This document shows, in pieces, positions 21,477-48,814 of a stretch of 49,085 bases of DNA. The stretch comes from Methanothrix sp. (GTDB lineage Archaea > Halobacteriota > Methanosarcinia > Methanotrichales > Methanotrichaceae), in contig JARYLI010000012.1 of NCBI GenBank assembly GCA_029907715.1, forward strand, positions 2,105 through 51,189, given 5' to 3'. A model generated the notes under the pieces. The model saw only the letters and a list, made by a program, of their open reading frames with translations, was not told the DNA's origin and searched no databases. The translations under genes and the position numbers were made by a program. Positions within the stretch are counted from its first letter, which is position 1, and each line of letters starts with the position of its first letter.

Positions 21477-21604
21477 CGCTTTTTTTTGTATTCAGCAACC
21501 TGGAGGTCATGCGGCAGGTTGATGAAGGCACTCACTCCCTCGCCAGGAGCGGAGCGCATGGCATGACTGCTCTCTGCGGACAGGTCATCCGATGAATAAA
21601 AGCG
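21477..21604 (+). mobile_element. MITE family A copy
   Basis: A 128-bp copy. Its ends have drifted (CGCTTTTTTTTGTATTCAGC on the left, GAATAAAAGCG on the right), but the interior matches the family. It is flanked by GTCTCAAA and GTCTCAGA (7 of 8 bases). The T8 run in its left end, 24 bases after the stop of the beta-helix gene, may act as that gene's terminator. Confidence 0.8.
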
Positions 21605-26382: not shown

Positions 26383-26506
26383 CGCCCTTATGTGTTTGGC
26401 AGCCTGGAGTTCGTGCAATTACAGCTGCCGTAAGCTTTCATCCTTCTGGCACGCATCCACTGCCGCATGCTGGGTTTACAGTTGTTCAAGCTCATGACCA
26501 GAAACG
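26383..26506 (+). mobile_element. MITE family A, degenerate copy
   Basis: The left end CGCCCTTATGTGTTTGGCAG is close to the family. The interior is only partly recognisable and the right end is decayed (CAAGCTCATGACCAGAAACG). It stops about a dozen bases before the next, better preserved copy. Confidence 0.5.
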
Positions 26507-26517
26507 ATGCTGTTTTT

Positions 26518-26641
26518 CGCTCTTATCCATCTGATAACTTGGCCCGAAGAGGCACCAGCACACTATGCGTTCCTTCCGAGGATATGAGTGCATTCAGCGA
26601 CCATCCCGCATCTCCTTCAAGTTGCTGAATACATAAGAGCG
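26518..26641 (-). mobile_element. MITE family A copy
   Basis: 124 bp: CGCTCTTATCCATCTGATAA...GTTGCTGAATACATAAGAGCG. Flanked by CTGTTTTT and CTGCTTTT (7 of 8 bases). Inverted relative to the copy at 1079. Confidence 0.8.
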
Positions 26642-26795
26642 CTGCTTTTTTTTGGCAACTGGAGTCAGGCAAGCTGGCTGGTAAACACCCGCTTACCATC
26701 ATTGAACGCATACAGGACCAATGCCCAAAGTTATCGATGGATGATAGCAAAAGATAGGGAAATGGCGCCTGCACAGGCAGCGCCTCTCCCGCGGA

Positions 26796-31443: not shown

Positions 31444-31599
31444 CGCTCTTATCCATCTGATAACCTGCCAGCAGAGAGCAGTCATGCCATGCGCTCGTTT
31501 CGACTTATCTTCGACTGCGTCGATGGCCTGGCGAGCGGATGAGTGCGTTCATCAACTGGCATGTCCTTCAAGTTGTTAAATACAAAAAACAAAAGAGCC
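31444..31599 (-). mobile_element. MITE family A, longer copy
   Basis: 156 bp: CGCTCTTATCCATCTGATAA...ACAAAAGAGCC. Flanked by a perfect 8-bp direct repeat, TCCAGAGT at 31436-31443 and 31600-31607. About 30 extra bases lie in the middle (around TTTCGACTTATCTTCGACTG), and the last base of the end is changed. Confidence 0.8.
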
Positions 31600-33554: not shown

Positions 33555-33753
33555 TGTAAGGTCGAACGCCACCGATTTTGTAATTACGCTCTTATGTATT
33601 CAGCAACTTGGAGATCATGCGGTAGGTTGCTGAATGCACTCATCCGCTCGCCAGGAGCGCATAGCATGACTGCTGCCTCTCCGGGCAAGGAGCGATTACA
33701 ATTTGTATGAATTGCCCTCTGCTATCGTATTCTCAAACATCATTCAACAGCAG
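33555..33753 (+). repeat. Repeat family D, copy interrupted by a MITE
   Basis: 33555-33586 and 33695-33753 together match 5670-5763; the family A element at 33587-33694 lies between them. The sequence ATTA occurs on both sides of the insert. Confidence 0.75.
33587..33694 (+). mobile_element. MITE family A, right end deleted
   Basis: Starts CGCTCTTATGTATTCAGCAA and follows the 1079 copy closely, but jumps from GGGCAAG directly to GAGCG, losing about 16 bases. It is inserted in repeat D. Confidence 0.75.
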
Positions 33754-34601: not shown

Positions 34602-35321
34602 CTACCTCTCCATCGCCATTCTTCTCATATCAGGAGGCATCCTCTCGATGGCGTAGCGCAGCGTGGTCCTGGGCATCACTGCCTTCCGGGATATGATGTA
34701 CTGGAAGACCTCCTGCTGGTGGCACCTGCTGGCCTCCTTGAGAAGCCAGCCGCAGCCCTTCTGGACCATGTCATCAGTGTCTTTAAGCAGCAGATCGGCG
34801 ATCTCGAGCACATCGCTCAGGAACAGCCCTCTGCGCGCTGGGAGTATCATGGTCGCGGCCGCAGCCCTCCGCACCCACCGGTTGTCTGATCCAGACCATC
34901 TCTTCAACCTCTCGATCTGCTGGGGATACATCTCAACGAATGTTCCAAGAGAGTGGTTGCAGAATGTATCGCACTTGACCCAGTTGTTGATGTAGGCTGC
35001 AACCCATCGCTCGAACACCTGAAAATCCCGGGGCTCGTAGCTCCTCCGGAGGGAGTACGCCCACTCGAATGCCACGATCGCGTCCTCTGTGTAATCCGTC
35101 TCCAGAAGGTCCTCGCAGAGCTCAAAGATATCGGTTTTCCCCAGGTGGCGGAGCCTCCTGAAATGACGCCTGGCGATCTCTCTGACCACAGGCGTCCTCA
35201 CACCGTAAAGCCTCACAGGCTCCCTGAAGAAGCGCTGAGCAGACTCCCGCGCCCGGGCGTCAGCGTTCTGCAGCAGCTCGGCTCTTACCAGAGATACAGG
35301 ATCCTCGCACATTCCATACAT
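34602..35321 (-). CDS. DNA alkylation repair protein, AlkD-like
   Basis: About 239 residues of HEAT-like helical repeats. Family segments: RLYGVRTPVVREIARRHFR, DAIVAFEWAYSLRR, WVKCDTFCNHSLGTFVE and WVRRAAAATMILPAR. AlkD-type glycosylases remove bulky or charged alkylated purines. The native start is taken as ATG 35321 (MYGMCEDPVSLVRA). The frame can begin at an ATG seven codons earlier (35342), but that one lies inside the family A MITE just upstream. Before the insertion the gene would have started nine bases after the LOR/SDH gene. Confidence 0.82.
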   Translation of the reverse strand: MYGMCEDPVSLVRAELLQNADARARESAQRFFREPVRLYGVRTPVVREIARRHFRRLRHLGKTDIFELCEDLLETDYTEDAIVAFEWAYSLRRSYEPRDFQVFERWVAAYINNWVKCDTFCNHSLGTFVEMYPQQIERLKRWSGSDNRWVRRAAAATMILPARRGLFLSDVLEIADLLLKDTDDMVQKGCGWLLKEASRCHQQEVFQYIISRKAVMPRTTLRYAIERMPPDMRRMAMER

Positions 35322-35329
35322 GATTCTTG

Positions 35330-35454
35330 CGCTCTTATCCATATGTTAACTTGCCCAATAGAAGCACTGGGCTTGCTATGCATTCCAGGTAAATGAATAA
35401 GTGCGTTCAGCAACCATATTGCACGACCCGCAAGTTGCCAAACACATAAGAGCG
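35330..35454 (-). mobile_element. MITE family A copy between alkD and the LOR/SDH gene
   Basis: 125 bp, CGCTCTTATCCATATGTTAA...AACACATAAGAGCG, flanked by a perfect 8-bp repeat GATTCTTG (35322-35329 and 35455-35462). Its left edge is nine bases from the alkD ATG and its right edge ten bases from the stop of the preceding gene. Confidence 0.88.
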
Positions 35455-35463
35455 GATTCTTGT

Positions 35464-36705
35464 TCATGAGGAGTCCAGACTGCCGGACTGATATCCTCCA
35501 GCCTTCCTGATCTCCCCGGCAAGCATCGGCAGGAACGTCCCGACATCCGTGACCAGGCCTATCGCCTGGGCTGTGCCCCTGTCCATGAGCTTCGTGACGG
35601 TCGCGGGGTTGATATCCACGCACAGCGTCTTGACATAGGAGGGAAGTAGGTTCCCGGTCGCGATCGAGTGGAGCATCGTCGCCATCATCAGAGCCATGTC
35701 CACCCCTTTCAACGCCTCTGCCATCGCATCCTTCGCCCTGACTGTATCTGTTATGACCTCGGGAAGGGGGCCGTCATCTCTTATCGATCCGGCAAGCACG
35801 AAGGGTATTCCCTTTTTGATGCACTCGTACATTATGCCCCCCCGGATCTTGCCCTCCTTTATCGCGTTCTCTATCGAGCCGCTGGCGATGATCTCGCTTA
35901 TCGCATAGAGGTGGTTCCTGTGACCCCCTGAGGTCGCGTTCCCCTTCATGTCCATTCCGAGGCTTGTGCCGAAGAGCTGTCTCTCTATGTCATGAACAGC
36001 GAGCGCATTTCCTGAGAGGAGGACATCGATGTATCCCTCCCTGATGAGCTGGGCAAGCGCAGGCGCGGCGCCGGTATGGACCACCGCGGGGCCGCAGATC
36101 GCAGCGATCCTCCCGCCCTTTCTCTTTGTCGAGACTATCTCCTCTGCGATCTGCCTCACGATCTCCACACTGGGACGCTCTGATGAGACCTCATTCCTCA
36201 TGAAGCCGAAGAATGATTTCTCCCTGGGGCGCTCTGGTGGCACGACCTTAACGCCAGTGGTCCCCACGACGACCATGTCCCCCTTTTTTATGTGATGTAT
36301 CGGAGTGCATCTCGCGCTGCTTCCTGACACCACTATGAGGCAGTCCATCCGGCTCCCCTCGACAGGGATCCAGGTTCCTCTGAGCCTGATATACGTGGGA
36401 TGGTTTGTGGTCGAGTAGAACCCCCTGGGAACCACCATGTCGCTGGGCGCTGGCTCCAGCCTGACATCCTCCGAGTCCACGAGCCTCGCACCAAGCGCAT
36501 TCAGCGCCTCAAGGATCTGGTTGAGATGCGACTGGTCCCTGCCGATAAGCGTGAGCCTGACATGGCTTGGCTCGTCCTTTCTCTTGCCCACAGTGAACTC
36601 CTTTATCTCGAACTCGCCCCCCATGTCCATGATCCTGTCAAGCGCCTTCGTCAGGATAAGCGAGTCGATCAGATGCCCCTCCATCTCTATATCGCATATC
36701 TCACT
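35464..36705 (-). CDS. LOR/SDH-domain enzyme, TIGR00300 type (probable ornithine cyclodeaminase)
   Basis: 413 residues from ATG 36705 (MSEICDIEMEGHLIDSLILT), with GGAG upstream; a GTG 11 codons earlier overlaps the RNA ligase. The N-terminal LOR/SDH domain is followed by GGRIAAICGPAVVHTGAAPA, DVLLSGNALAVHDIE, GMDMKGNATSGGHRNHLYAI and PSYVKTLCVDINPATVTKLM. Archaeal proteins of this type have been linked to ornithine cyclodeamination to proline; the assignment rests on family recall. It sits between the RNA ligase and alkD. Confidence 0.75.
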   Translation of the reverse strand, partial: SEICDIEMEGHLIDSLILTKALDRIMDMGGEFEIKEFTVGKRKDEPSHVRLTLIGRDQSHLNQILEALNALGARLVDSEDVRLEPAPSDMVVPRGFYSTTNHPTYIRLRGTWIPVEGSRMDCLIVVSGSSARCTPIHHIKKGDMVVVGTTGVKVVPPERPREKSFFGFMRNEVSSERPSVEIVRQIAEEIVSTKRKGGRIAAICGPAVVHTGAAPALAQLIREGYIDVLLSGNALAVHDIERQLFGTSLGMDMKGNATSGGHRNHLYAISEIIASGSIENAIKEGKIRGGIMYECIKKGIPFVLAGSIRDDGPLPEVITDTVRAKDAMAEALKGVDMALMMATMLHSIATGNLLPSYVKTLCVDINPATVTKLMDRGTAQAIGLVTDVGTFLPMLAGEIRKAGGYQSGSLDSS

Positions 36706-36734
36706 CATACAAACAACAGCTCCAGAAACTCCGC

Positions 36735-37856
36735 TCACCAGGGCTGGCCCTCGATGACCGCGAGGGTCTTGTCGTTGGTGGACATCACCTGCTTCAGGAT
36801 CCTGACCACATACCTGTCTCCGTCCTGCTCCGGTATATCGAAGATGGCCTTCGTCCCCATCCGTCTGAGGTGCTGCTCGAAGTCACGCGCGGTCTGTATC
36901 GATCTCACCCTTATCTGCACCTGCTGCACGATCTGCTCGCCCTGCATTCTTCTGCGGATCGTATCGGTGAGCGGCACCAGTATGCTCTCCCCAAGCCTTA
37001 AAGCTCTTTCTCTCAGTGCCGCTTCATCCTCATTCCACTCGACCGACTGGAACCCCTCACGAACGACCCTTGAGAAGAAGAAGTCCTGCGCGTAATCGTT
37101 GTAGTACCTGAAGGCGAACTCCAGGTCGCTGCAGTTGCTCTCCGAGGCGGTGTACTTCAAAGGGCTCGCCCGATTCTCAGGATCCTTTATGACCACCCCC
37201 TCCCGCCCGGCCCTCCCGAGCCTCTTTATTATGCGAAATATCTCATCTGCAGCCCTCTCAACCGGGAACTCGCCGAAGAACGGGACGACCTTAACGCCGT
37301 ACTCCTCTGCAAGCGCATGCGTGGCATGAACGCCCATAATCGACCGGCAGTTCTTCTTCGAGATGTCGAAGAGGTAGAAGTCGATGCTCTCGACCGGATA
37401 GACGTCCTTAGGCACATATGGATTCTCAGGACCGACCATCTCCCCGCACAGGACAATGTCCGGATTATCCTCGAAGAGATCCGGATCCACCCTCTCCCGA
37501 ACGATCTCTGTCGAGAAGGGGCATATGTATCCTCCCCTGGTCAGAGCATACACATCACCGTCCACGGAGACGGCTCTTATGTTGTAGCCGTTCATCTTCT
37601 CCTCGACCGCCACCCTGTCGAGAAAGTTCCTCCTGATGGCGGGGGCCAGCATCATGGCCCTCCTTATCTTCGGATACCCGTGTACCACATCACCGTTCTC
37701 GAATATCACAGTCCCGGGCTCAACCCCGGATATGCCCTTCTCGAATCGGAGGAGACGGGGCTCAGGCCAGCTGGAGAGTTTCAGGATGCCTTCCATCAGA
37801 GACTCAAGCCTCTCGACAGGCACACCCAGGCTCCTCGCTGCCCTGCTCAGGTTCAT
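36735..37856 (-). CDS. ATP-dependent RNA ligase, Rnl3 (Pab1020-like) family
   Basis: 373 residues. The nucleotidyl lysine is K87 in VEEKMNGYNIR (KxNG rather than the DNA-ligase KxDG), followed by DIVLCGEMVGPENPYV, DFYLFDIS and REGVVIKDP. The C-terminal dimerisation-like part (SVEWNEDEAALRERALRLG...) matches archaeal Rnl3 enzymes, which circularise RNA. Its substrate in vivo is unknown. It lies 25 bases downstream of the first of five CBS genes, on the same strand, and just before the LOR/SDH gene. Confidence 0.9.
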   Translation of the reverse strand: MNLSRAARSLGVPVERLESLMEGILKLSSWPEPRLLRFEKGISGVEPGTVIFENGDVVHGYPKIRRAMMLAPAIRRNFLDRVAVEEKMNGYNIRAVSVDGDVYALTRGGYICPFSTEIVRERVDPDLFEDNPDIVLCGEMVGPENPYVPKDVYPVESIDFYLFDISKKNCRSIMGVHATHALAEEYGVKVVPFFGEFPVERAADEIFRIIKRLGRAGREGVVIKDPENRASPLKYTASESNCSDLEFAFRYYNDYAQDFFFSRVVREGFQSVEWNEDEAALRERALRLGESILVPLTDTIRRRMQGEQIVQQVQIRVRSIQTARDFEQHLRRMGTKAIFDIPEQDGDRYVVRILKQVMSTNDKTLAVIEGQPW

Positions 37857-48467: not shown

Positions 48468-48790
48468 CACCCTCTCCTCCCCGCGACCATCACGACCTCC
48501 TCGCCCCCGCCGCGCGCATGCTCGATCGCCTGGAACGCGAGCCCCTGGAGGCGCATGCGCACCCCCGTGCGCGCGGGTGAGCCGTGCGGGAGAGAGCCAT
48601 CGCGGCGGATGATGGCAGAGGCGGCGTGCATCCACCGCGCGCTCCTCACAGTTGTGAGCTGATGAAAGCCCAAAGCCTGCACACCCTGTGGACCACGGAT
48701 CATCTTAATACATCCTCCGCGCAGCTTTACAACCACCTTACCGATCGAGCTGCTAGAAAGATCTTTCGCTACTGATTCCGGGTCTGCTCG
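48468..48790. other. GC-rich segment, no gene called
   Basis: 48440-48640 is unusually GC-rich against AT-rich flanks. A minus-strand frame (48805-48467) encodes MFGNCRADPESVAKD...EEVVMVAGRRG with no recognised family. Perhaps a relic of a gene; not called as CDS. Confidence 0.35.
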
Positions 48791-48814
48791 GCAGTTGCCA
48801 AACACATAAGAGCG
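48791..48814 (-). mobile_element. Solo terminus of MITE family A
   Basis: GCAGTTGCCAAACACATAAG then AGCG matches the right end of the 35330 copy; the rest of the element cannot be found upstream. A TATA-like sequence follows directly (TATACTTTATATCG, 48815-48828). Confidence 0.55.

Follow-up and report, generated by a model that had tools for sequence, protein, structure and literature searches.

The Chunjie MITE of Geobacter uraniireducens (Chen et al. 2008) lies inside an operon, reportedly without disturbing it, and the SM1-SM4 MITEs of Sulfolobus solfataricus occur in 25-44 copies each, according to an excerpt of PMC10969869. The same excerpt describes ERIC elements as intergenic sequences present in tens to hundreds of copies in Enterobacteriaceae and Vibrionaceae (PMC10969869).

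The locus analysed here belongs to a 49,085-nt stretch of Methanothrix sp. DNA, whose full length is called the window throughout, and carries a 125-bp MITE directly before alkD, a gene for DNA alkylation repair. With a probability of about 88%, we regard it as a young insertion, mobilised in trans, with alkD read from the ATG at 35312 and with a modest effect, or none, on alkD expression.

Element structure and copy number

The element, its ends, and its flanking duplications were placed as follows:

35330-35454, no strand assigned: MITE copy of subfamily A, 125 bp (BLAST matches, subfamily consensus)
35330-35354, plus strand: left terminal inverted repeat, with outer block CGCTCTTAT and inner block AACTTG
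35430-35454, minus strand: right terminal inverted repeat (arm comparison, family end pattern)
35322-35329, plus strand: target site duplication, copy 1, GATTCTTG
35455-35462, plus strand: target site duplication, copy 2, GATTCTTG

The two arms, 25 nt each, are 76% complementary, perfectly so in the outer nine bases and the inner block, and the flanking copies of GATTCTTG are identical at 8/8 bases, as an earlier note on this DNA had stated in calling the duplications perfect. At 125 bp, the element is too short for a transposase, and the ORFs crossing it enter from outside. With terminal inverted repeats, a target site duplication, and many mobile copies, it has the properties of a MITE. The MITE insertion that the note had proposed is borne out by the inverted ends, the 8/8 duplication, the multicopy family, and the empty sites of the sister genomes (see below). 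The element stands 8 nt away from ATG 35321, the spacing that had been given for the alkD start; the distance to the upstream TGA (35464-35466) is 9 nt, instead of the ten bases claimed. Moreover, the two genes would indeed stand nine bases apart without the element, when counted to ATG 35321 and with one duplication also removed.

A BLAST search of the element's own genome gave at least 49 matches, with 40 of the 176 candidates scored. A 24-base end pattern, allowed up to three mismatches, occurred at 338 sites (173 forward, 165 reverse) in 2,006,954 bases, while the reversed pattern used as the control gave 0; at two ends per copy, this would correspond to about 170 copies, or roughly 1% of the 2.0-Mb genome. 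The window contains 14 such sites versus 0.02 expected. Among the best 30 own-genome copies, the duplication was 8/8 in 10 and 7/8 in 6 more, and copy L028 had a shifted 9-bp duplication. In a pool of 126 distinct elements from this genome and other loci, 61 had exact 8-bp duplications and 26 matched at 7/8 bases. A family profile built from 103 of the 126 was used to mark the window copies, and revealed further full, diverged, or partial ones:

756-880: family copy (profile)
1079-1201: family copy (profile)
21484-21604: family copy (profile)
26384-26481: family copy (profile)
26518-26641: family copy (profile)
31444-31587: family copy (profile)
33587-33709: family copy (profile)
48787-48814: family copy (profile)

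Three window copies are clustered near 26384-26724. Elsewhere, copy L196 (G000:C6, 2163-2286) interrupts an IS256-type transposase gene, and copy L199 (G000:C26, 1827-1950) lies near IS256-type transposase fragments.

For copies with 7-8 matching duplication bases, 4 of 16 fell into an ORF of ≥120 aa after the flanks were rejoined, in comparison with 68% of random positions drawn from the same loci; the intergenic insertion site at alkD is typical of the family. Such a preference for non-coding positions, together with the very high copy number, would also suit a selected regulatory or structural repeat of the REP or ERIC kind that does not move. However, this explanation is hardly credible in view of the exact 8-bp duplications, whose sequence differs between many sites, the copy inserted in an IS gene, the family copies found inside one another, and the dominant subfamily, which differs from genome to genome. 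A mobile MITE is the reading that we retain.

Empty sites and age of the insertion

Of 60 relatives, 45 had an alkD homologue, and 30 loci were kept, the window's own included. The order RNA ligase-TIGR00300-alkD is maintained in 6/6 genomes of the genus, whereas none of the 24 loci retained for other genera and families has such a neighbour within about 1.5 kb. The earlier note had suggested looking for the empty site in related genomes and had regarded an element shared by all of them as evidence against its proposal: the five sister genomes (5/5) have the same gene order without the element. No sister site among the five retains the pre-insertion 8-mer itself, and it is the alignment together with the gene order, instead of a base-level match, that demonstrates the empty site. 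In the window, the gap from the upstream stop to ATG 35312 is 151 nt, and it shrinks to 18 nt when the element and one duplication are subtracted; the gaps between the stop and the conserved ATG in the sisters are 14 nt (G005), 28 nt (G003), 39 nt (G001), 43 nt (G004), and 86 nt (G002).

The window copy departs from the nine-copy subfamily consensus at a single base, a change that is common to another copy. Since the divergence is limited to that one base and the sister sites are empty, the insertion is recent, and it probably postdates the split of its own lineage from the five sister genomes.

The alkD start and predicted effects on expression

The genes and candidate starts around the insertion are all on the minus strand:

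34602-35312, minus strand: alkD-like DNA alkylation repair gene (PF08713), 236 aa from the genus-conserved start
35321 and 35342, minus strand: alternative ATG starts of alkD
35340-35342, minus strand: additional in-frame ATG contributed by the element, the start of the longest alkD ORF
35464-36738, minus strand: upstream gene, TIGR00300 / ArgZ-like, ornithine cyclodeaminase-type, 424 aa
36735-37856, minus strand: next gene upstream, TIGR01209-type RNA ligase (Pfam, NCBIfam)

Pfam assigned DNA_alkylation to alkD and ArgZ-like/LOR-SDH domains to the upstream gene, which NCBIfam placed in TIGR00300; the next gene, a TIGR01209 RNA ligase according to NCBIfam, overlaps the TIGR00300 gene by 4 nt. 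The Rfam scan of the window returned only two tRNAs.

The longest alkD ORF, 246 aa, begins at ATG 35342 inside the element, in frame and with no stop in between, which would allow a true start there and a new N-terminus. We consider this very unlikely, because the homologous alkD sequence begins at 35312 and no sister has comparable upstream residues. Indeed, ATG 35312 (MCED..., M[CR] across the genus) is present in 6/6 genus genomes, no in-frame start upstream of it is common to the six, and in G003 and G004 no other in-frame start lies between the upstream stop and the conserved ATG. As the homology to alkD of other genera also starts at or just after 35312, this conserved ATG is the likely start, and the over-call would then be ten codons. 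The spurious in-frame ATG that the earlier note had pointed out thus exists at 35342, while its estimate of a start called seven codons too early has to be replaced by ten. The TIGR00300 gene keeps its own stop and the alkD start is conserved, so neither protein is altered. An automatically called start can fall within a mobile element, which is a caution for annotation.

From the position of the insertion, we infer that a putative operon may be split and alkD expression altered, as had been proposed; most likely the effect would be mild, with a longer leader and weaker coupling. A stronger version, in which the element rewires alkD by cutting it off from the operon promoter and placing it under separate regulation through its own promoter or a processed hairpin, would draw on several features of the insert. 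For the RNA of 35300-35480, the fold is a long hairpin of -53.2 kcal/mol, and two weak TATA-like octamers lie at two mismatches to TTTATATA. In addition, two weak matches of the sigma-70 kind occur on the alkD strand of 35200-35600, against an expectation of 0.3, but promoters of this type would not be used by an archaeon. However, the fold has a z of only -1.43 (18/200 shuffles were as stable), 35200-35600 contains no terminator-like site, and the TATA-like matches are no better than two mismatches. The gaps in the sister genomes, moreover, already range over 14-86 nt. Rewiring is, therefore, improbable. Every TATTTATATA-type match had at least two mismatches to TTTATATA, and the ribosome-binding motifs included in the scan were absent. 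The element alone, folded as DNA, had a z of -2.30, with 4/200 shuffles as stable. The folds and the weak promoter-like matches do not establish a regulatory part. Filled and empty sites in sister species at a conserved methanogen gene pair would make the influence of a MITE on gene coupling directly measurable.

Distribution and candidate parental elements

With at most one mismatch, the end pattern was found in 6/6 genus genomes and in 0/44 other genomes of the archaeal family. With a slightly looser pattern (up to three mismatches), the six genus genomes had 339, 259, 119, 109, 35, and 5 sites, and 21 of the 44 other-genus genomes had 1-7 sites, about the control level. In a collection of genome contigs, which may omit the window's own or near genomes, the 24-base pattern marked 30 stretches, 28 of them in the MAG JAKPCO01 and 2 in Methanothrix sp. 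SKW87. Viral contigs gave 0 family matches, and a literature search by titles and the beginnings of abstracts found no description of this MITE family. Recent transposition within the genus might be traced with this family as a marker.

In G002, subfamily A is represented at an unrelated site by a copy with 98% identity to the window copy, versus 83-90% between G000 and G002 in the alkD region. This fits a recent transfer between species, as judged on very few copies. A stretch of 3.1 kb that contains two MITEs (L005 / L062) is 97.7% identical between G000 and G005, which share 90-94% around alkD; it possibly represents a recent transfer as well. In the single-contig genome G002:C1, copies at 1641513, 1648398, and 1655283 are spaced by exactly 6885 bases, which points to a tandem duplication of roughly 6.9 kb.

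No autonomous element with the family ends was found among the PF01610, PF01609, PF00872, and PF12762 transposases of the six genus genomes, of which those in single copy or at contig edges were only partly assessable. The ISL3 transposase (PF01610) was detected in 0/6, and the family does not qualify as an ISL3 derivative. PF00872 was present in 2/6 and PF12762 in 1/6 genomes, in both cases with no matching flanking pair, and the IS256 and IS1595 searches yielded no parent. PF01609 occurred in 4/6 genomes, and its ends differ from those of the MITE in the groups with readable ends; these ends are GAGGATTCC, TGCTGTGTT, and GGGTGTGTC, which speaks against a derivative of the IS5-like DDE_Tnp_1 elements detected in the genus.

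Three candidates were rejected. The first, at 1494-2762 of the window, has family ends on both sides of a transposase remnant and turned out to be a MITE that an IS5-type element (about 1550-2692), with GAGGATTCC ends and a decayed transposase, has split in two; the MITE halves around it match profile positions 1-71 and 69-124. Relatives of the decayed transposase gave matches in 32 of 50 genomes, with GAGGATTCC-type ends in 6 of 8 inspected loci from other genera; when 23 such loci were searched automatically for flanking 8-bp duplications, only noise resulted. The second candidate was an IS of 988 bp with nine copies in G002, where the apparent MITE end is a chance internal match. The third, a set of similar 24-mers (six in G019, one in G015), belongs to a different repeat: the match extends beyond the 24-mers, and no partner end turned up. 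A repeat other than the MITE, GGCTCCTCGCTATTTTGTATGGGTGAACTTG, lies near base 990 of L204, L205, and L207 and recurs in G019, with a variant in G015.

Proposed history and comparison with known systems

A 125-bp non-autonomous element of a large, genus-restricted family entered the 18-nt gap between TIGR00300 and alkD via an 8-bp staggered cut. In the history that we favour, a DDE-type transposase, to which the ends and the 8-bp duplications point, would have acted in trans on the 24-25 bp ends. Translation of alkD would still begin at the conserved ATG 35312, and, as the main consequence, a leader lengthened from 18 to 151 nt may weaken the translational coupling to the upstream gene, if there is any. 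Overall, this is a real and recent insertion of a known kind of element, and an ordinary event. A broader picture is tentative and, in our judgement, rather doubtful: that of an orphan family, unusually abundant for an archaeon and moved by some other transposase, which would have recently crossed between species and would still be reshaping the gap lengths of gene clusters.

The Chunjie MITE resembles the present case as a small MITE in an operon with many other intergenic copies, as far as the excerpt of the source describes it (PMC10969869). It differs in being bacterial and 178-235 bp long, and the operon here is a putative one, suggested by gene order. The 988-bp DDE_Tnp_1 (PF01609) IS of G002 has the genus, inverted repeats, and 8-bp duplications in common with the MITE, but its ends TGCTGTGTTGGATAA do not match. 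ERIC elements are similar in size to the present MITE. Compared by their excerpted description only, they are also alike in copy number and intergenic position, and unlike in their hosts. The SM1-SM4 elements, likewise known to us by excerpted description, share the character of high-copy archaeal MITE families; set against their 25-44 copies each, the approximately 170 copies inferred in 2.0 Mb make the present family a large one for an archaeon.
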